From positions 1 through 32,919 of IMG/VR virus record IMGVR_UViG_3300033149_000189: a DNA stretch of 32,919 bases. The stretch is one strand, 5' to 3'. This stretch comes from a virus. Under the pieces are notes generated by a model. That model was not told the DNA's origin, did not search any database, and saw only the letters and a program-made list of their open reading frames with translations. The position numbers and the translations under genes were made by a program. Positions 20,214-32,621 of the stretch are shown here, one piece after another (the stretch's first letter is position 1; each line of letters begins with the position of its first letter).

Positions 20214-22649
20214 TTATCTTGGGGAAAACTCGGCTAAATCAAAACCATCTAAACTATCTTCATTTGATTCGAATATTTGCGGTGGCAAATTATTCTTACG
20301 TTGATTTATTAATTTAGATTGCTGCGTATTCTGTTGGTCGATACGAGCAGCTTTAGCATCTTCTCTTTGAGTCTCTCTTTGCTGAAGTGCAGTCTCAGAA
20401 ATATTTCTAAGTTGCTGATTATAATTAAACTCTTCAGCCATTAATTGACTCTTAAGCTCTGCTTCATTTTTCATCTTTTCTATTTCAAAAGCAATCTCAG
20501 CTTGTTTCAATTGCATTTTGCCTTGAAGTTCAGCTTGTTGTTTTTGTAAAGCTAATTGAGCTGCCATCTCTTGAGACTTCAAGTTTTGTTGTGCAGTCAT
20601 AGCTTGTTTCTGCATAGCCATTTTCTCTTCTCTATCCTGCTTCTGTTTTCTTTTCAGTTTAAGAAGTTGGTTTGCAAGTTTAATATTTTTTATCTCTCTA
20701 ATATCAATAGCATCTTCAAGATTAATATCCTGTTTAGATAAAGCCATCTGAATGTTTTGTTCAAGTTTAGCTTTCTCTTCTTCATCAGGTGCAACCTCTA
20801 AGAATATACCAAAGTCATAAATGTATAAATCTGAAATCTCATTCAGAATACTTACATTGTACTTACCTATCTTATTAGCGAAGTCATCTTTGAAATCTGC
20901 GTATTCAAGAATATCTGCAACCCTATAAGTTAATGCTTCAGATAAACTTCTAAATATATAAAGACTTCCATCCAATATATGACGAGTTGCTACGTTAGAA
21001 TTTAATGCAGCAAGTTTCTGTAAACCAACTAATGAATCAGGGTCAGGCATACTACCGTCTCTTGCTTCATTAAGACCTGTTACAGTTCTAATCATATTTA
21101 GATAATAGTTATAATTACTGATAAGCATCTGTGATTTAGATGCTCCTGAGTTAGATGTCAATTGAGTAATCGGTACTCTTGCATTATTAAAATCTCCATC
21201 CTGAGTATAAGACCTACCAATAACAGAACCTGTTTGGAAATAAAGTCTTAATGCATCTTCAGGATTGTAAGCATTACCTGTACCTAAATCAACTTCATTT
21301 AGTCCATCGGCATCAATGTATACACCATCAGGAACTACACGTGAAATAACTTGTTGTAATTTTAAGTGAGTCATCTGAATCAAATCAGCAAAAGGAATCA
21401 TTCTTCTAACTAAAGATTCAATTACTCCTTTGTACATTCTTGGTGCTACTGCTACGTAGTTAGGTAATGCGTGTTGGCTTGTAGATTTTGGTCTTACCAT
21501 ATTCTTTGCAAGTTCCCACTTTAAAAGAATATTAGTTCCCATAACCATTACACCATCATACCAAACATCAATAGTCTTTTCAAACTTCTCAAACTTTCCT
21601 TCTTCCATTACTTCAACCGGTGGGTCAAATTGGTCATCTTTTTCAATAACCTTACTACCACCTGTTGCCATTACTTTTTTCTTATAGACCATCTTTTTAG
21701 TGGTCTTGTAATTAAAGTACATTAATGTAACTGTGTCTCTATAAAAAATATCATTCTCATAGAACTGAGCAACATTATAATAATCGTACCACGATTGACT
21801 GTACTTAGATATCTCTTCTAAATCTTCATTGGTTAATGAAGGGTCAATCTTTTTACAATCAATAATAGGAACTGTTTTAATTTCTCCCCAATAAAAACAA
21901 TCTTTAAAGTGAGGGTCTTCTGTATAGCTATAGACAATATTAGCAGGGTCAACATAAGAAACTTGTACACCTGCTCCGGGTAGAAACTCGTGCTTTGCAA
22001 CACCTATTCCTAAAACAGTTAAGTCGTAATCAAATTGTTTACGTAAATCTAAATAATGATTCTCTTCGAGTATAGTATTAATAGCTTCTTCTTCAGCAAT
22101 CTCAATAGCAGGTTTGTAGTTTAACTGCATATATAAAGATAATTCCTCATCAGTTTGAGGAAGTTCATCAGAAGGCATAACAAATGGGTCAACCCCACCT
22201 TTCTTTTGAATTATTTCTAACATAGGTTTAGCAGCCATCTGTCCCTCTATCATATCTTGATACTTAGAACGTTTGGCTTGTGACATAGCATCTTGTGCAT
22301 ATGCCTTTACTTTAAACAACCTATCTGCCATTCCGTTAACAACAATGTCAACAAACTTTGGTATAACAGGGACAGGGGTCCAATCTAAATTTAAGTAACT
22401 TAAATCTCCATCAATTGCTAATTCATTCTTATATTTGCCAATGGATTGTTCACCCCTTGCGTATAATCTTAACCTATGAAACTCTCTCCATTGGTCGTAG
22501 TATCTGCAACCATTCCCATCTTTTTTAAACCATTCATATTGTATTGCTTGACCTATTTGTAGACCAAACTCATCGGTAGCCTTTTCTGCATCCGAAACGA
22601 ATTGGCTTGGGAACCCTGCAGATGTAATATTTATTTTTACATCTTTCAT
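20214..22649 (-). CDS. Portal protein (811 aa)
   Basis: The portal ring at the capsid vertex is the DNA gate and packaging platform. The N-terminal region includes WREFHRLRLYARGEQSIGKY and LNLDWTPVPVIPKFVDIVVN, a pattern I recognise from portals of crAss-like and Bacteroidota podoviruses. Residues about 640-790 are a long Gln/Lys/Glu/Ala coiled coil (ALQKQQAELQGKMQLKQAEI), fitting a C-terminal barrel like that of P22. The end reads FESNEDSLDGFDLAEFSPR. The ATG overlaps the terminase stop by 4 nt (ATGA), so the two genes are translationally coupled. A TAACTTTG box inside the terminase gene (22690-22697) could add a promoter. Position between terminase and scaffold supports the call. Confidence 0.85.
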   Translation of the reverse strand: MKDVKINITSAGFPSQFVSDAEKATDEFGLQIGQAIQYEWFKKDGNGCRYYDQWREFHRLRLYARGEQSIGKYKNELAIDGDLSYLNLDWTPVPVIPKFVDIVVNGMADRLFKVKAYAQDAMSQAKRSKYQDMIEGQMAAKPMLEIIQKKGGVDPFVMPSDELPQTDEELSLYMQLNYKPAIEIAEEEAINTILEENHYLDLRKQFDYDLTVLGIGVAKHEFLPGAGVQVSYVDPANIVYSYTEDPHFKDCFYWGEIKTVPIIDCKKIDPSLTNEDLEEISKYSQSWYDYYNVAQFYENDIFYRDTVTLMYFNYKTTKKMVYKKKVMATGGSKVIEKDDQFDPPVEVMEEGKFEKFEKTIDVWYDGVMVMGTNILLKWELAKNMVRPKSTSQHALPNYVAVAPRMYKGVIESLVRRMIPFADLIQMTHLKLQQVISRVVPDGVYIDADGLNEVDLGTGNAYNPEDALRLYFQTGSVIGRSYTQDGDFNNARVPITQLTSNSGASKSQMLISNYNYYLNMIRTVTGLNEARDGSMPDPDSLVGLQKLAALNSNVATRHILDGSLYIFRSLSEALTYRVADILEYADFKDDFANKIGKYNVSILNEISDLYIYDFGIFLEVAPDEEEKAKLEQNIQMALSKQDINLEDAIDIREIKNIKLANQLLKLKRKQKQDREEKMAMQKQAMTAQQNLKSQEMAAQLALQKQQAELQGKMQLKQAEIAFEIEKMKNEAELKSQLMAEEFNYNQQLRNISETALQQRETQREDAKAARIDQQNTQQSKLINQRKNNLPPQIFESNEDSLDGFDLAEFSPR

Positions 22650-24880
22650 CTAATTATCTGACTTAAGTTGCCTTTATTGCTATACCTTGCAAAGTTAATC
22701 AATATTCTTGATTCTTTTCTTTCAGGTTGGTACAAGTGTTTTTGACAAGCCATAATAGCTAATCCTGAACTAATTGACGCATCATACTTAGTTCTGTTAC
22801 TTATATCAAACCTTGCCCAATCCTCAAGAGTCCTGTTAAAAGGCATTGTATTCATATCTCCTTCTTCAGTTTTTAAACCAACGTGTTTCTCTATAAATGA
22901 TTCAATAGCAGCAGCGTGAGCTTGTTTAACATCCTCACTCGAGTTGGGTATACCCCCTAACTCTCTTTCTGTTTTTGAAAGTTTAGTAAACACTTTGTCG
23001 GGTCTATTCATACAATAACCTCTATACCCTCTGTTTTTAAAATGGTATAATAATCTTGGCTTGTTATTTTCAATTAATATTGGCATACCATAAAATACAC
23101 ACGCCATCAAAACATCTTCAAAAAATATTTCTGCAGTTTGTGGTCTTGCGATATACTCTAAAAAAAACTCATTACTTGGTGCTTCTTCCATACTAAATTT
23201 AGTTAGTCCGTGTAATGCACCATTAGAGCCTTTGCCTCCTACTGTTCCTGATATGTCATATGAGTCACAACCGAAAGCTCCTATATGTTCATTTCCGGGA
23301 TATCTAATCCCGTTCTTTGTTTTTATATTGTTCTGTAAATTAATGTTGGGTACCCACGTAATTAAAAACCTTCCTCTTTTGTCAGGGGAAAATAAAACCT
23401 TCGAATCTTTTATTCCGTCCTTCCAACTAAAAGAACCACGTGTAACATATTGGTCCGTAATCATTCCGTCATTATAATCTATCTGCTGATATATCTTTGT
23501 CAGATTAAATAATGATTGTTTGCTTTCATCTCTAAATGCGTGAGACTCTGTTCTTGGAAACTGTCTATAATATTCATTCAAAGCATCAGCATCATTCTTT
23601 AATGATTCAACTTCATTCTCCCAATACTCAATAGCACCCATAGATATAGTTTCATTGTCTATACCTAAAACTTTTACAGTAGGTGTGTCTAAAACAGGAT
23701 TGCCATATCTATCTATGAATCCTTCCATATTCCATTCCATAGGAATAAATAGTGAATATAAACCACTTTTTGTTTGACCGTTTGAGTTACGTTTAGTAAC
23801 ATCTGAGTCATAATACAATTGCTTAAAATTATCCCCACCCTTTGCTAATGCATTGGATGTTGAACCCATCATACACTTACCTATAATCTTGCTACCTAAA
23901 CGTAAACAAGTTTTAGTTACACGCCAATTGTTTAATATATTATTTGGCTTTAGCCATTTTCCACTTTCATCGTGAACTAATAATAATAACTTTTCACCAT
24001 CATAACTGTTGTCATCCGTATTCTTCCAATCAATAGTAGTATCTAATCCTTGTATCTCTTCATCATCAGAGTCATACATATTCTTTTTAGTAATCTTAGA
24101 TGCCGGTACACGATAAGCTAATTCTGTTTTTGGTTTATCCATACCATCCATAATCGGTTTGAAAAAGAACGGTAGCCTACTATTTATTGGTACTACTTTA
24201 TCAGTAAACATTTTCTTTGCATCCGAACCCGTCTTTGAAAGTATTCCAACTCTTGAATCTTTTGCGAGTGTACCCGTGTTCACACATTCTGATGATGACA
24301 TAAAAGAAAATCCTGAACGTCTAATCTTTAAATATATCATTCCAAAACTTCTTTTGTCAGCTTTACAAGCCTCCCAAAAAATATACAACAATCTATTAGC
24401 TTCTCTATAGTCAGGATAACCAACATCAATATTAGTCCACTGTAGATACATATAGTGAGCACCTGTTATGTAAGTGGGGATACCGTTGTTCATAAACCAA
24501 CACCCATCTTCTCTATAATCAAACTCTTGCTCAATGTAATCAACCCATCTGCTTTTAAATTCAGAAGGCATATCATTCCATTGAAATATAGATTGAATCT
24601 TTGATAATTGTTTGGGTAACTCTCGTCTCTCCCAATACTGTTTGCTTTTATCTGAGTGTCTTTGAAGACACTCTTTAGGTGTTTTAGGTAGTGCAATCTT
24701 TAAACCTGATATCTCAATGACATCACCGATTTGTCCTGTCTTAGATATAACAACTACATCATACTTTTCATCGTAACCATAAATCCAAGACTTATTACGA
24801 TTCTTATTACTAAGTACGTTTTTAGGTACGTAATTATTTAGTACTCTATATAGTTCGCTATTTAGACCTTCTTTCTGCAA
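22646..24880 (-). CDS. terL: Terminase large subunit (744 aa, TTG start)
   Basis: The packaging motor ATPase and nuclease. Residues 83-175 carry the block YWERRELPKQLSKI and NNGIPTYITGAHYMYLQWTN, typical of large terminases of crAss-like and related phages. The Walker A position holds IRRSGFSF (186-193) rather than a canonical GxGKS/T loop. A Walker B motif follows at LLLLVHDE (298-305; D304, E305). A probable motif C lies at CMMGST (336-341). The RNase H-like nuclease starts near GAFGCDSYD (534-542) and includes an acidic ILIEN (601-605). The frame has no ATG near its N-terminus. TTG at 24880 is the best start and overlaps the upstream 92-aa gene by 23 nt, so initiation probably depends on coupling. 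One copy of the palindrome lies within codons for ECLQRHS. Confidence 0.88.
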   Translation of the reverse strand: MQKEGLNSELYRVLNNYVPKNVLSNKNRNKSWIYGYDEKYDVVVISKTGQIGDVIEISGLKIALPKTPKECLQRHSDKSKQYWERRELPKQLSKIQSIFQWNDMPSEFKSRWVDYIEQEFDYREDGCWFMNNGIPTYITGAHYMYLQWTNIDVGYPDYREANRLLYIFWEACKADKRSFGMIYLKIRRSGFSFMSSSECVNTGTLAKDSRVGILSKTGSDAKKMFTDKVVPINSRLPFFFKPIMDGMDKPKTELAYRVPASKITKKNMYDSDDEEIQGLDTTIDWKNTDDNSYDGEKLLLLVHDESGKWLKPNNILNNWRVTKTCLRLGSKIIGKCMMGSTSNALAKGGDNFKQLYYDSDVTKRNSNGQTKSGLYSLFIPMEWNMEGFIDRYGNPVLDTPTVKVLGIDNETISMGAIEYWENEVESLKNDADALNEYYRQFPRTESHAFRDESKQSLFNLTKIYQQIDYNDGMITDQYVTRGSFSWKDGIKDSKVLFSPDKRGRFLITWVPNINLQNNIKTKNGIRYPGNEHIGAFGCDSYDISGTVGGKGSNGALHGLTKFSMEEAPSNEFFLEYIARPQTAEIFFEDVLMACVFYGMPILIENNKPRLLYHFKNRGYRGYCMNRPDKVFTKLSKTERELGGIPNSSEDVKQAHAAAIESFIEKHVGLKTEEGDMNTMPFNRTLEDWARFDISNRTKYDASISSGLAIMACQKHLYQPERKESRILINFARYSNKGNLSQIIR
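24655..24672. repeat. 18-bp palindrome, copy 4 of 4 (inside terL)
   Basis: The plus strand reads AGTGTCTTTGAAGACACT, extended by G and C to a 20-nt palindrome (24654-24673). In the terL frame it encodes E-C-L-Q-R-H-S. The reading frame differs from that of copy 1, so protein homology does not explain the match. Confidence 0.92.
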
Positions 24881-25136
24881 ATCCTTGTTTAGTATCTATT
24901 TTTGTATTAGGTGTTATTTCAGCAAGAGCCTCACGTTCTTCCTCAACACGTTTCAATATTTCAAATGCATCAAAGATTGCTAACTTCTTTGTAGCTGCTG
25001 CATTCTTTAATCTGTCTGCAGCCAAGTCATCTTCAGGGTCAGGTTTAATAATTTTTTCTTTAGCAACTTTTATTAATTGTTCTACTGCCTGATGACCTGC
25101 TTCTATAATTTTTAATTTGATTTCTTTACTATTCAT
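24858..25136 (-). CDS. Possible terminase small subunit (92 aa)
   Basis: This is a short, mainly helical, charged protein (MNSKEIKLKIIEAGHQAVEQ, then ADRLKNAAATKKLAIFDAFE). It has no membrane segment or signal peptide. It overlaps the start of terL by 23 nt. I recall similar proteins directly upstream of terL in uncultured marine Bacteroidota phages. Size, helicity and position suggest a small terminase subunit that recognises phage DNA, but no helix-turn-helix is evident, so the call rests on position. It could instead be a head-assembly factor. Its ATG overlaps the upstream stop by 4 nt. Confidence 0.5.
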   Translation of the reverse strand: MNSKEIKLKIIEAGHQAVEQLIKVAKEKIIKPDPEDDLAADRLKNAAATKKLAIFDAFEILKRVEEEREALAEITPNTKIDTKQGFAERRSK

Positions 25137-25696
25137 AATACTAATGTAATTGAATGGTCATACATTCTATAGAGAGTTTCACCATCAACATTAAATTTAT
25201 ATTCTTGAAAAGGTTTGTAACAAACTGTATCTCCTATCTCAACACCCTTGCTTTTTAAATAATCATTCACGATTACAACTTCACCCATTAAAGGTTCTTT
25301 TGTGAATGGCTTGAATATATAACTATCTTTAACAGGGATGGGTTTAACAAAACAATACCTATCGTATCCATACCACTTATCATCTTTCTTGTAAGCAAAA
25401 AATTGGTCGGGGTCTAAAAAGAAAATGTTTTCTTTTAGAAAACTCTTACCGCTTCTTCTACGTCCTTTCATATCATTGTAAAATTTAAAGACGTTATGAT
25501 GAACTAATAATGTATCTCCTTTCTCAATAGGACCACAATAATTAAGAGGTGTCTCAAGAACTATTGCTTCTCTATTTGAGGTAGATGCATCTTCTTCAGA
25601 GGTGCTTGTTATAAAATCAATACCTCCTATATTTTTTATGTTATCGTATCTCCTATTATTTTTAGGTTCTACAATGAATTGATAAATAGACTTCAT
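25133..25696 (-). CDS. Tandem GroES-like co-chaperonin-type protein (187 aa)
   Basis: The sequence reads as two GroES-like units. Unit A (about 5-71) has FIVEPKNN, then NIGGIDFI, NREAIVLETPL and IEKGDTLLVHHNVF. Unit B (about 114-187) has YCFVKPI, MGEVVIVND, VEIGDTVCYKPF and GETLYRMYDHSITLVL. Both follow the GroES order: IVKP, GG or loop segment, GEVLAVG-like strand, VKxGDxVxF, and in unit B the closing EEYLxMxExDILxIV-like strand. Residues 72-113 form an insertion. Phages such as T4 (gp31) encode their own GroES so that the host GroEL folds the capsid protein, and the position two genes before terL fits a capsid-folding role. The assignment is mine from pattern and needs a structure comparison. 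It has 4-nt and 1-nt overlaps with its neighbours. Confidence 0.55.
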   Translation of the reverse strand: MKSIYQFIVEPKNNRRYDNIKNIGGIDFITSTSEEDASTSNREAIVLETPLNYCGPIEKGDTLLVHHNVFKFYNDMKGRRRSGKSFLKENIFFLDPDQFFAYKKDDKWYGYDRYCFVKPIPVKDSYIFKPFTKEPLMGEVVIVNDYLKSKGVEIGDTVCYKPFQEYKFNVDGETLYRMYDHSITLVL

Positions 25697-25920
25697 TAAA
25701 AATTTATATTGTACTCAATGGATATAGGCATAGTGGATGTAAACTCTTTCCACAAGACAACCTCGTCATTCTTTTCAATCCAAATTTTTATTGAGTTAGA
25801 TTCTCTATAGTGCTTTATTAAATGAATAGTGTAGTTTGAATTTAACACTTCTTGTCCAACAAGATAGTGCATAGCTCCGCCTTTGTAGTCAGGACCTATT
25901 GAGATTTTCCTTATGTCCAT
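25696..25920 (-). CDS. Small protein of unknown function, first gene of the packaging unit (74 aa)
   Basis: I place the start at the ATG at 25920, giving 74 aa beginning MDIRKISIGPDYKGGAMHYL. A longer frame from a GTG at 26010 would run through the terminator and promoter and is rejected. The protein has beta-like segments (EVLNSNYTIHLIKHYRESNS, then IKIWIEKNDEVVLWKEF) and no membrane segment. I recognise no family. It opens the transcription unit of GroES-like protein, terminase, portal, scaffold and capsid, with a TATCTTTG box 22 nt before the start and a 1-nt overlap with the next gene. Confidence 0.6.
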   Translation of the reverse strand: MDIRKISIGPDYKGGAMHYLVGQEVLNSNYTIHLIKHYRESNSIKIWIEKNDEVVLWKEFTSTMPISIEYNINF

Positions 25921-25942
25921 TTTTAGTTTATTTAATTTATAA

Positions 25943-25950
25943 CAAAGATA
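25943..25950 (-). promoter_or_regulatory. Bacteroidota-type -7 promoter box (TATCTTTG)
   Basis: The minus strand reads TATCTTTG, 22 nt before the ATG at 25920 and only 2 nt after the terminator T-tract. It is the likely promoter of the packaging and capsid unit. The -33 region lies in the terminator hairpin, and no TTTG is seen there. Confidence 0.65.
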
Positions 25951-25952
25951 GT

Positions 25953-25981
25953 AAAAAAAAATACCCCTATAAAGGAGTATT
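25953..25981 (-). terminator. Rho-independent terminator before the packaging unit
   Basis: On the minus strand AATACTCC pairs with GGGGTATT (one G-U pair; plus 25960-25967 with 25974-25981) around a 6-nt loop, followed directly by a run of about eight or nine T (plus A-run 25953-25961). It ends the transcript that includes the 334-aa gene and the repeat region. Confidence 0.8.
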
Positions 25982-26002
25982 CTTTTAATACGAGAGGGCA
26001 AG

Positions 26003-26067
26003 GGATACACCGCAAAGCACGAGGCTATTAGGATACACCACTCACGACTAACGTTAATGGATACACC
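26003..26067. repeat. Three GGATACACC repeats spaced exactly 28 bp apart
   Basis: GGATACACC occurs on the plus strand at 26003-26011, 26031-26039 and 26059-26067, start-to-start 28 bp both times. The 19-bp sequences between them are not alike. The block is flanked by an inverted pair, AGGGCAAGGG (25995-26004) and CCCTGCCCT (26066-26074), which can close a long stem with one bulged A. No ORF fits. It lies in the 161-bp gene-free stretch between the 334-aa gene and the terminator at 25953-25981, and would be in the 3' part of that transcript. It could be a structured RNA, a protein-binding array or a packaging or replication signal. The function is unknown. Confidence 0.7.
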
Positions 26068-26081
26068 CTGCCCTATTTTTT

Positions 26082-27086
26082 TTATGCATTTCTTCTTGAT
26101 ATTGTACTTGAAGTTCCTACAGTCATAACAGCTTTATTTAATGGATTTGTAGTGGCAGTAATACCTCTTTGATACGATAAAGTTACAGGATTTGAAGGTT
26201 GTCCAAATATATATGGAACTGTATGGTTAGTCAATGTAAAGTTAGGATTCTCAATACCTACGACTAATCTAAAATATATTTTAAGCATTTGAGGAGCATC
26301 TCCAAAAAAGTTAAAAGGAGTTAACGTATTCCATCCCGGTGACGATTGTCTATTATCTACACCATTTCTTACTCTAAACTGTTCAGTAGGACTATCTGCT
26401 AATCCTGTAGGATAGTTAAAGTTGGTGTACTCTGTGGTTTGTGGTGTTCCATTGGGAGTTAGATAATTAAACAAAAACTGAAGCTGATTAAAAGGAACCT
26501 CTATATGTGTTGTCTCATAAAGGTTGGGGTCAAAAAAATCTGCTACTGCACCTGTGTTTGCAACCTTTAAATCACCAATAACATTCCACTCTGTTACAAT
26601 AGGATGAAATTTAACATTATAACCTTGATTATTATACATAAACGTATCTCCGTTACCCCAATTTGTATCTCCAAATCTTGCTTGTGTATAGGCTCCGTTT
26701 AAGTGTGTAGGATGAGTCCATCCACCACTTTTCCCATATGGACCTGCTATGGAGGTTCTCTTAGCTTTAGCTTGGTTTTTTGTATACATAAAAAGTCTTG
26801 CAGTTGGATTTTCTTGAAGCCATTTAATATTATCTCCTTGAAATCCTTTAATGCATAACTTACTATTAATACCCCACAAGTCATCTGTTGTACTTTTTTT
26901 CTTTACAATGTACAATTCAGGTACAGGGATAGTATTGTTTTCAGGAAGTTTTGAATTGGTGTAATTAGCTATACCATCAACCGTAATGTTTTTGGTGGCA
27001 TCCTTAACAGACCCACTTGTTTCAGAGATTATTATTTTATCATCTCCTTTTGGATTTACAATATTATAGTTAGCTATCTTACCCAT
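26082..27086 (-). CDS. Fibre-like structural protein (334 aa)
   Basis: The N-terminus (MGKIANYNIVNPKGDDKIII, then TKNITVDGIANYTNS) has the pattern common at the N-termini of phage fibre and virion-surface proteins: a short hydrophilic opening, a GxDxxxxxx-S segment and a KITVxxLxxY-like segment. The rest is beta-rich with many Asn, Thr, Pro and Gly residues (HPTHLNGAYTQARFGDTNWG). There is no signal peptide or membrane segment. It lies 2 nt after a 77-aa coiled-coil gene and before the repeat region. A capsid or tail fibre role is likely by build only. Confidence 0.5.
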   Translation of the reverse strand: MGKIANYNIVNPKGDDKIIISETSGSVKDATKNITVDGIANYTNSKLPENNTIPVPELYIVKKKSTTDDLWGINSKLCIKGFQGDNIKWLQENPTARLFMYTKNQAKAKRTSIAGPYGKSGGWTHPTHLNGAYTQARFGDTNWGNGDTFMYNNQGYNVKFHPIVTEWNVIGDLKVANTGAVADFFDPNLYETTHIEVPFNQLQFLFNYLTPNGTPQTTEYTNFNYPTGLADSPTEQFRVRNGVDNRQSSPGWNTLTPFNFFGDAPQMLKIYFRLVVGIENPNFTLTNHTVPYIFGQPSNPVTLSYQRGITATTNPLNKAVMTVGTSSTISRRNA

Positions 27087-28164: not shown

Positions 28165-28286
28165 TTGCCTTGACCTCTATATTTTTTTTTATATTTAGTT
28201 TGACTACGTGATGCATTCTTTGAATGAACACCGGGTCTTTTTTTTCGATTCTTTTTTTGGAATACAGGTATATGTATTTTAGCCAT
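28161..28286 (-). CDS. 41-aa highly basic protein in the lysis region
   Basis: ATG at 28286, TGA at 28163-28161. The product begins MAKIHIPVFQKKNRKKRPGV and ends SQTKYKKKYRGQGK. Over a third of the residues are Lys or Arg. It is tied to its neighbours by a TAATG overlap upstream and an ATGA overlap downstream, which strongly supports translation. I recall similar small basic proteins in phages of marine Bacteroidota. It may bind nucleic acid or sit in the virion. The function is unknown. Confidence 0.75.
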   Translation of the reverse strand: MAKIHIPVFQKKNRKKRPGVHSKNASRSQTKYKKKYRGQGK

Positions 28287-29037: not shown

Positions 29038-30087
29038 TTAAGGAGTACAGTTGGTAAAGTTAGGCTTAGGTTGTGTCCAATTAGGTTGTAAATTAGAAAA
29101 CCCACCGCACTGTATAACATTGGCAACATTCCAACTACTTAAATTTTGATTATAAACACCCGTAGAAGGACCCCCACATTCAAACATAGCTGACATATTA
29201 GTCACATTACTAACATTCCAAGAGCTTAAAGGTTGGTTAAATGATATTGCTCTGTTAAACATAAAAAACATATTAGTTACATTACTAACATTCCAAGAAT
29301 TAAGCCATTGATTAAAATCACTTGCTGAACGAAACATATTACTCATATTTGTAACGTTACTCACATCCCAATTACTAATATTCTGATTGAATGAAGTAGC
29401 ACCTCTGAACATACCACCCAAATCTGTTGCACCGGATACATCCCAACTTGATAGGTCTTGATTAAAGTTATCTGCTGCCTCAAACATTTCGTAAAAGGCA
29501 AACCCTACACCACTGCTCGTATTCCAAGAATTTAATGGAGAGTTAAAGGCATTAGCAGAAGAGAACATAAAACCAAAGTCAGTAACACTACTTACGTCCC
29601 AAGAATCAATGTTTTGATTAAATGAAGTAGCAGAAGCGAACATAGACTGCATAGTAGTAACACTACTCACGTCCCAATTGTTTAAGGGTTGGTCGAAAGA
29701 ATTTTGTCGTTGGAACATACTCCTCATATTGGTGACATTGCTCACATCCCAATTTCCTATAGGTTGATTAAATGCTCCTCCACTTGAGTCCAATAAAAAC
29801 ATTTTATCCATATTGGTAACACTGCTCGTATCCCAATTTGAAATATTCCCATTAAAAGAATTTCTTCCCCTAAAGGCTTCAGACATATCAGTTACCTGAC
29901 TAACATCCCAATTTTGAATCTTACCATAAGGCACAAGGTTGTAGTCCCCATTAGGGTCTTGTGCTAATATATCTGTAATTGCTTGGTTAAAAGTTGCGTC
30001 CGTCAAAGGGGTTGGTGGAGGCGGTGGGGTTGAAGATTGATTACCCGCCTCTAATCCTATTCCTATTGCTATTGCTATAGATGCCAT
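29038..30087 (-). CDS. DUF285/BspA-like repeat protein, possible adhesin (349 aa)
   Basis: Residues 1-12 are hydrophobic (MASIAIAIGIGL), followed by a Pro-rich linker (SSTPPPPPTPLTD) and about 11 tandem repeats of about 25 residues. The repeat pattern is NWDVSxVTxMxxMFxxAxxFNQxL, for example NWDVSNVTNMSNMFRSASDF. Ten repeats are nearly complete. The last, SWNVANVIQCGGF, is degenerate and leads to a short Cys-containing end (FTNCTP). This is the DUF285 (BspA-like) family, known from surface proteins of bacteria and some protists. In a phage, between virion genes and the lysis group, a tail-attached or capsid-attached adhesin is likely. It could also be released at lysis. The ATG is 1 nt after the stop of the 155-aa gene. 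Confidence 0.82.
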   Translation of the reverse strand: MASIAIAIGIGLEAGNQSSTPPPPPTPLTDATFNQAITDILAQDPNGDYNLVPYGKIQNWDVSQVTDMSEAFRGRNSFNGNISNWDTSSVTNMDKMFLLDSSGGAFNQPIGNWDVSNVTNMRSMFQRQNSFDQPLNNWDVSSVTTMQSMFASATSFNQNIDSWDVSSVTDFGFMFSSANAFNSPLNSWNTSSGVGFAFYEMFEAADNFNQDLSSWDVSGATDLGGMFRGATSFNQNISNWDVSNVTNMSNMFRSASDFNQWLNSWNVSNVTNMFFMFNRAISFNQPLSSWNVSNVTNMSAMFECGGPSTGVYNQNLSSWNVANVIQCGGFSNLQPNWTQPKPNFTNCTP

Positions 30088-30566: not shown

Positions 30567-31157
30567 TTATGCTTTTGTTACAACAATTCCTACTACCGCT
30601 TCAGATGTAGAAGAAGCAATACTTCCTGCTACTTCAATTCCTGCCATAGCAAACATACTACCTGCAGGGATTACTAAATTTTTATCACTTAAGTCCTCAA
30701 CAAATCCCGGTGCAGTGTTGTCGTCTGCATTGGTTAATTCAGTAGTTAACGCACCTATTTGAGTCCAAGTTCCTGCTTGGTTAGGGTCTGCATCTAAAGC
30801 TGCTGAAGTGTAGAGCTCAAATACATAATTAAAATCTCCTGACGCACCTGTAATAATCTCAGCCATCTTGAAATAGATAGACTCAATTTTTACTGCGTAA
30901 GGAAAAATAATAGCTGAAGTCTGAGTAGTAGGTGATTGGATTCCTCCCCACTCTACAGTGTCTCCATTAAAAGGAGCAGTATTACCTGCACCTAAGTTAA
31001 TAATCTTTCCGTTGTACGAAATCTGTACAAGCTCTTTAAAATCTGCGGGAAATTCATATGCATCCCTTTGTGCATTTAGTTGAGCAGAGCCTTTATTTTC
31101 TGTATCAACAAAAGATGCTACTCCGTGAAATTTTGTTCCTGTTGGTATTGCTGCCAT
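30567..31157 (-). CDS. Virion surface protein, shared N-terminal module (196 aa)
   Basis: Residues 1-35 (MAAIPTGTKFHGVASFVDTE, then KGSAQLNAQRDAYEF) match the N-terminus of the 164-aa protein at 32097-32591. The remaining residues are unlike that protein: beta-rich, with PFNGDTVEWGGIQSP and SAIIFPYAVKIESIYFKMAE, and the end AVVGIVVTKA. A common N-terminal module with different C-terminal parts is typical of fibres or decorations that share an attachment site. No promoter box is near the ATG. The leader is A/T-only. Confidence 0.58.
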   Translation of the reverse strand: MAAIPTGTKFHGVASFVDTENKGSAQLNAQRDAYEFPADFKELVQISYNGKIINLGAGNTAPFNGDTVEWGGIQSPTTQTSAIIFPYAVKIESIYFKMAEIITGASGDFNYVFELYTSAALDADPNQAGTWTQIGALTTELTNADDNTAPGFVEDLSDKNLVIPAGSMFAMAGIEVAGSIASSTSEAVVGIVVTKA

Positions 31158-31349: not shown

Positions 31350-31353
31350 TGTA

Positions 31354-31361
31354 CAAAGATA
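31354..31361 (-). promoter_or_regulatory. Bacteroidota-type -7 promoter box (TATCTTTG)
   Basis: The minus strand reads TATCTTTG, 4 nt before the ATG at 31349. No -33 TTTG is evident upstream. The spacing implies a leaderless transcript for the 54-aa gene and the virion surface genes after it. Confidence 0.58.
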
Positions 31362-31367
31362 AATAAA

Positions 31368-31508
31368 TTATTTTTTACATTTACATAGCTTGTTAGGACA
31401 CGATGCTACATTAAACATAAGTTTAGATAGGAGCCAATTCCATTTACATTGGAACTTGCACCAAACACCTTGAACCCAAAGTCCTGCTTTTACTAATAAC
31501 TTTCCCAT
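31368..31508 (-). CDS. 46-aa Cys- and Trp-rich small protein
   Basis: ATG at 31508, TAA at 31370-31368. The product begins MGKLLVKAGLWVQGVWCKFQ, continues CKWNWLLSKLMFN, and ends ASCPNKLCKCKK. It has five cysteines and four tryptophans in 46 residues. The ATG follows the stop of the 73-aa gene directly (TAAATG), so the two are probably coupled. No family is recognised. The Cys-rich end suggests a metal-binding or disulfide-linked peptide. Confidence 0.6.
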   Translation of the reverse strand: MGKLLVKAGLWVQGVWCKFQCKWNWLLSKLMFNVASCPNKLCKCKK

Positions 31509-32096: not shown

Positions 32097-32591
32097 TTAA
32101 AAAACTTTTAATTCAAAATAAATATATGCAAGATATGATGATTCATCGTAATCAACAGGTGTTCCTGACCCATCCCATACTGTAAAAATTAATCTTGTTA
32201 TAGGTTGTCCTTGCCCTGTCCAAGATACAAGTCCATCAATATATTTTTTAGTAGAACCTCCATAAGTCCTTCTGCAGTTAAACGTAAAACCGTTTGGTAC
32301 AGTAATAGAGTTTGAAAAAATAAGTTGATATGTACCCGCCGCAGTTCTACTTGAGGTTATTGTTTCTCCTATAGTATTTTCAAATATAGTAACAACGGGA
32401 GCATCAGTTCCCACTTGATACAAGTAACCATTTATTACTTCACTACTTGATGAACCTGCATTAACCGTGTCTGCAATATCTTGCATTGTATACGCTTGTC
32501 TTCCCGCATTTAATTGTGCGGAACCTCTATCAAGAGTATCTACTGAGGCATCTAAGCCGTGAAATTTAGTCCCATTAGGTATTATAGCCAT
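32097..32591 (-). CDS. Virion surface protein, shared N-terminal module (164 aa)
   Basis: Residues 1-34 (MAIIPNGTKFHGLDASVDTL, then RGSAQLNAGRQAYTM) match the N-terminus of the 196-aa protein. The C-terminal part differs: it is Ser/Thr-rich and beta-like (NTIGETITSSRTAAGTYQLI) and ends YLAYIYFELKVF. It fits a fibre or decoration with a shared attachment module. A TATCTTTG box lies 22 nt before the ATG. Confidence 0.58.
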   Translation of the reverse strand: MAIIPNGTKFHGLDASVDTLDRGSAQLNAGRQAYTMQDIADTVNAGSSSSEVINGYLYQVGTDAPVVTIFENTIGETITSSRTAAGTYQLIFSNSITVPNGFTFNCRRTYGGSTKKYIDGLVSWTGQGQPITRLIFTVWDGSGTPVDYDESSYLAYIYFELKVF

Positions 32592-32613: not shown

Positions 32614-32621
32614 CAAAGATA
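32614..32621 (-). promoter_or_regulatory. Bacteroidota-type -7 promoter box (TATCTTTG)
   Basis: The minus strand reads TATCTTTG, 22 nt before the ATG at 32591 and next to the stop of the 96-aa gene. It would start a unit that includes the 164-aa protein and the small-protein cluster. The -33 region is coding, without a clear TTTG. Confidence 0.6.

Follow-up and report, generated by a model that had tools for sequence, protein, structure and literature searches.

A predicted 80-nt three-way-junction RNA follows an exchangeable fibre-like gene in phages

Packaging RNAs of the phi29 type (pRNA) keep their secondary structure as their sequence diverges (PMC12670572 and PMC5340915), and pRNA is the nearest analogy to the element described here, likewise a phage-encoded RNA with a three-way junction (in our case supported by covariation) and here encoded near a terminase gene. 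Bacterial small RNAs derived from 3' untranslated regions (3'-UTRs), a reviewed class (PMC9438474), share with it a structured stretch that a stop codon precedes and an intrinsic terminator follows; Rfam Flavo-1 and other motifs from comparative genomics (PMC2864571) are also orphan structured RNAs recognised by covariation, and the name of Flavo-1 points to flavobacteria; in type III toxin-antitoxin RNAs (ToxI-like tandem repeats), as here, a terminator and a small gene come after short tandem repeats. Unlike pRNA, our element is missing from close relatives whose packaging genes are very similar (it is absent from MW202828.1 and from 61 relatives with the 74-aa gene described below), so it is not part of the packaging machinery; its loops (UUNGU / YUCGU) are not mutually complementary, as ring formation would demand, and it is tied to a fibre-like gene and is 80 nt long, with repeated linkers. 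Unlike the 3'-UTR-derived small RNAs, it is a three-way junction that covaries, its linkers are repeated and it shows no recognised seed. Its 13.5 bits against the Flavo-1 gathering score of 42 mean that it is not a member of that family, and in contrast to a type III system the adjacent 74-aa gene is conserved in 61 relatives that lack the repeats and has a separate promoter after the terminator. Searching Rfam 15 with the window (the whole stretch of DNA analysed, a single IMG/VR record of 32,919 bases) and five homologous loci yields no family at the gathering cut-off (the best sub-threshold matches score 13-22 bits), and we found no description of the three-way-junction element in the open-licence literature. 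It is of interest as a phage RNA family that covariation backs and that has no Rfam counterpart, in which joints repeat in an unusual design and whose occurrence is strictly tied to a single exchangeable gene.

The minus strand carries every gene in the window, and its relatives are flavobacterial phages (elemo phages, Cellulophaga phages and the uncultured MW202828.1). Recognised genes include the terminase large subunit (TerL; 22646-24880, minus strand; PHROG 6681, 1.5e-180), a portal gene, a virion structural protein and a GroES-like co-chaperonin gene (25133-25696, minus strand; PHROG 13932, 5e-19). Along the minus strand, a 334-aa gene (27086-26082) for a putative tail fibre or receptor-binding protein is followed by the repeat block (26074-25995), by an intrinsic terminator (25986-25953) with stem AATACTCC/GGGGTATT and a T run, and by TATCTTTG (25950-25943), which we take to be a Bacteroidetes-type -7 promoter element, here for the genes downstream: the 74-aa gene (25920-25696), the GroES-like gene, a 92-aa gene, then terminase and portal genes. 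The preliminary description had correctly set the block ahead of a terminator and a promoter. It had also called this the only sizeable gene-free stretch; the gap, at 161 bp, is the window's largest, yet 159 bp are gene-free at 31350-31508 and 121 bp at 28165-28285. (The gap at 31350-31508 has a TATCTTTG element at 31361.) A coding role for the block was considered and rejected: extending the 74-aa gene upstream to a GTG gives the 104-aa open reading frame at 25696-26010, and the conserved start is the ATG at 25920.

The block drew attention as three 9-bp repeats at an exact 28-bp period, and within the window this holds. GGATACACC starts at 26003, 26031 and 26059 (plus strand; spacing 28 and 28), has no further exact copy in the window, and is the only exact 9-mer there to form an equally spaced triplet at spacings of 12-100; no such triplet appears in any of 200 dinucleotide shuffles. 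The triplet is not a product of chance. Among relatives, however, the period is not strict (R2 to R3 is 29 in L088, where R3 reads GGTGTAACC), and in L089 R1 reads GGTGTGTCC. Exact-pattern scans of viral contigs, looking for either the triplet or two copies of the minus-strand repeat GGTGTATCC, return just the same cassette, unrelated tandem repeats and chance matches; a scan of genome contigs for the repeat finds no match, and blastn against phage records gave nothing useful. What the repeat represents becomes apparent on the minus strand, where it reads GG-UGUAU-CC: in the folded L088 allele each copy is the end of one helix (GG), a 5-nt linker (UGUAU) and the start of the next helix (CC). 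A 9-nt arm, a 5-nt loop, a second 9-nt arm and a 5-nt linker add up to the 28-nt period.

The RNAalifold consensus of 8 alleles, together with a match to our covariance model R1 (84 bits), places an 80-nt element at 26074-25995 on the minus strand, in the order P1, linker, P2 hairpin, linker, P3 hairpin, linker, P1. The sequences said to bound the block and to be able to pair, AGGGCAAGGG and CCCTGCCCT, do pair; in all alleles the 5' arm of P1, AGGGCAGGG (26074-26066), has the 3' arm, CCCTTGCCCT (26004-25995), as its partner. Linker 1 (UGUAU, 26065-26061, within R1 at 26059-26067), whose second and third positions (G, U) are invariant in the 8 alleles, leads into the P2 hairpin CCATTAACG-TTAGT-CGTGAGTGG (26060-26038), where 8 of 9 pairs show two-sided changes across alleles. 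Linker 2 (UGUAU, 26037-26033, within R2 at 26031-26039) keeps UGU in all 8; the P3 hairpin CCTAATAGC-CTCGT-GCTTTGCGG (26032-26010) has two-sided changes in 7 of 9 pairs and is the weakest helix of the window's own allele; linker 3 (UGUAU, 26009-26005, within R3 at 26003-26011) has an invariant GU in all 8. The predicted junction is thus one of three helices of about 9 bp each, joined by three near-identical 5-nt UGUNN linkers and with two helices capped by UUNGU-type pentaloops, and it is the joining of three helices by such linkers that produces both the pseudo-three-fold symmetry and the apparent repeats.

The 8 distinct alleles come from 11 contigs and fall into four sequence groups (alignment A6), and all occupy one position, 3' of a 334-aa homologue and before the terminator and the TATCTTTG promoter. 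Comparing this intergenic region among related phages, as the preliminary description advised, shows a constant layout, a different sequence and pairing that is kept. The L110 allele, GGTGGTTCC-TGTAT-GGCACCGTC-TTCGT-GATGGTTCC-TGTGT-GGAGATGTC-TTCGT-GATTAATCC-TGTAT-GGCACCGCC, has the GG/CC ends of all three joints switched to CC/GG; L116 retains the exact 28-nt period with a sequence that is different again; L111, L118 and L120 have one additional arm base and a period of 29. Relatives retain the architecture and not the sequence, so taking the loss of repeats or spacing in relatives as a refutation, as had been suggested, is misleading. RNAalifold returns the junction unprompted, with two-sided compensatory changes in 16 of 19 pairs. 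The named junction pairs 78.4% of cells on the alignment at a covariation score of 0.595, and shuffles equal it in 0 of 500 cases on paired cells, on two-sided cells and on score alike; with the partners displaced by 1 to 3 columns, pairing falls to 42-50%. Mean binding is -8.1 kcal/mol for cognate arms, against -3.2 for non-cognate arms and -3.6 for the same helix with arms of different groups, and when one allele from each of the four groups is used (an assignment test less affected by relatedness) the true partners rank 1 of 24 for P1, P2 and P3. Identity between groups is 0.36 in the arms, 0.74 in the linkers and 0.88 in the loops. Strong covariation across relatives therefore backs the structured RNA that had been one of the options first raised: the alignments indicate a fold retained by compensating mutations despite nearly complete sequence change, with four sequence groups known and hence few independent covariation events.

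The helices also bear on strand. Read on the minus strand they contain 20 G-U against 4 A-C oppositions (scored alike), the excess expected if, as it appears, minus-strand RNA is what selection acts on. CsrA-type GGA sites on the plus strand were set aside because this bias favours the minus strand and because CsrA is generally missing from flavobacteria. The 28-nt units are, as a separate observation, more alike within a molecule (U1/U2 mean 66%; 79% in L110, 6017-6095) than between groups (57%), which suggests an origin by tandem duplication or homogenisation.

The covariance model finds 10 matches in 94 sources (937 kb), only 3' of 334-aa homologues and with nothing else up to E = 5; whole records that were searched have one RNA copy each. 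Every examined contig with the 3' end of a 334-aa homologue has the RNA, and all others searched lack it. The homologues that precede it, 48-100% identical and with the RNA in every case, include a set at 87-100% identity and a set at 48-49%, and there are further loci at 47-49%. By tblastn over the relatives, the 74-aa gene is kept with or without the RNA: in 61 relatives it has a different upstream gene, with neither the RNA nor the terminator-promoter unit there, and in 59 of these 61 the upstream gene ends within 40 bp of the 74-aa start. The closest RNA-less relative, L008 (TerL 88% identical), aligns to the window on both sides and has no counterpart of the stretch that begins with the 334-aa gene and ends with the promoter, and the complete relative genome MW202828.1 (TerL 77% identical) gives no covariance-model match. 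On this distribution, the gene with its RNA, terminator and promoter makes up a single exchangeable cassette, and this suggests that exchangeable surface-protein-type cassettes of dsDNA phages can come with a structured RNA, a terminator and a promoter of their own. A geometry-only scan of relatives for more junctions yields, beyond the known alleles, matches at control level.

The 334-aa protein has no homologue among phage isolates, plasmids, PDB, Pfam, PHROGs and bacterial genomes, and its AlphaFold model (mean pLDDT 49) is too poor for a fold search. Four relatives encode short proteins with a similar N-terminal motif and a different length and C-terminus, which would fit a modular appendage protein. 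Between the window (26082-27086) and L089 (6001-7005) the 334-aa gene is 87-88% identical while the phages are otherwise 97-98% identical; the changes cluster around residues 110-120, 230-265 and 310-330, and the RNA block differs too.

Our preferred reading, to which we assign a probability of roughly 0.6, is of a structured minus-strand RNA of about 80 nt in the 3'-UTR of the 334-aa gene, recognised by a factor through its unpaired bases and governing the 3' end of the mRNA; comparison shows how the RNA folds, from which strand it is read and to which cassette it belongs, and the function is inferred. The minus-strand transcript of the gene would include the junction as its 3' untranslated region. 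A protein or other factor would bind there, most likely through the unpaired UGUNN linkers and UUNGU loops, because these are the conserved parts of an RNA whose stems covary. Because the junction sits between stop codon and terminator, its role would most likely be to set the fate of the mRNA 3' end (stability, translation or processing). An 80-nt, single-copy element with several natural alleles, unlike one another at most stem bases, makes a compact and directly testable object.

A stable small RNA is possible, if rather doubtful. Junction and terminator together (about 120 nt) would be released from the transcript 3' end, or made from a promoter of their own, and act in trans on phage or host targets; 3'-UTR-derived small RNAs occupy just such a place, after a stop codon and ahead of a strong intrinsic terminator, and the exposed loops and linkers are conserved. 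The alleles have no conserved internal promoter, however (a TTG-N20-TATATTTG match at 26234-26204 lies within coding sequence, and its -33 part is altered in L116 and L118), and the conserved single-stranded stretches are just 5 nt, short for a seed. We think it improbable that the element controls termination, as a put-like polymerase-modifying RNA or an attenuator that tunes read-through from the 334-aa gene into the 74-aa, GroES-like and terminase genes. It does lie 8 nt upstream of an intrinsic terminator dividing two gene blocks, but all 8 alleles have the terminator hairpin and T run, folding predicts terminator pairing at a probability of about 1 in each, independent of the junction and with no competing pairing, and a promoter right after the terminator means that read-through is not needed.

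There is similarly little chance that the working form is an arm-swapped long hairpin (P2 5' arm with P3 3' arm, P2 3' arm with P3 5' arm), alone or switching with the junction. The window, L089 and L116 alleles all have this hairpin as their minimum-energy fold (-25.7 against -23.0 kcal/mol for the junction in the window's own allele), and on the alignment it is nearly as good as the junction (73.2% paired, covariation 0.506). Both of its special helices nevertheless fall below the junction, its non-cognate arms are weaker on average, one of the two special helices ranks just 4-5 of 24 in the assignment test, and its score owes much to the resemblance of P2 and P3 within a molecule. Three tandem hairpins with UGUAU loops were also tried and rejected (60.2% paired, covariation 0.360). 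It is a long shot that a symmetric protein assembly recognises the pseudo-three-fold RNA, with its three equivalent joints of the GG-UGUAU-CC type, the most provocative candidate being the expected trimer of the upstream fibre-like protein, so that the 3'-UTR would couple synthesis or assembly of a trimeric appendage to the protein's own mRNA; if true, the element would define a new class of RNA, one that travels with a receptor-binding gene. That the block acts at the DNA level, with a small terminase or another protein binding iteron-like repeats or a pac/cos-type packaging site, was among the options first raised and has in its favour three identical, equally spaced 9-mers about 0.9 kb from a candidate small-terminase gene; it is scarcely credible, because pairing is conserved and the repeat sequence is not (GG-TGTAT-CC becomes CC-TGTAT-GG in L110 and takes other forms in L111, L116, L118 and L120, pairing kept), the G-U bias indicates RNA, and the block goes with the 334-aa cassette, being absent from relatives with 74-88% identical TerL, from the 61 with another gene in the slot and from complete genomes, MW202828.1 among them. 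The case also shows why, in AT-rich phage genomes, a fold should be tried on "repeats" before they are labelled iterons.

The surrounding genes offer some further observations. The gene at 29038-30087 (about 3313-3905 in L089) has internal repeats of the DWDVSxVTxMxxMF type (DUF285/BspA-like), which account for many off-register alignments between close strains. The proteins encoded at 30567-31157 and 32097-32591 have a common N-terminus, MAxIPxGTKFHGxxxxVDTxxxGSAQLNAxRxAY, suggesting duplicated appendage proteins that have diverged C-terminally. Many of the relatives L011-L087 have recurrent insertions, of about 150-200 bp between the 74-aa and GroES-like genes and of several hundred bp to about 0.9 kb between the GroES-like and 92-aa genes; small genes may have been inserted at these places. 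A second terminator directly followed by a promoter-like TATCTTTG lies at 16730-16688 (minus strand), the same arrangement as at 25986-25943, and similar TAnCTTTG elements occur at 32621, 31361, 27353, 20185 and 8179.
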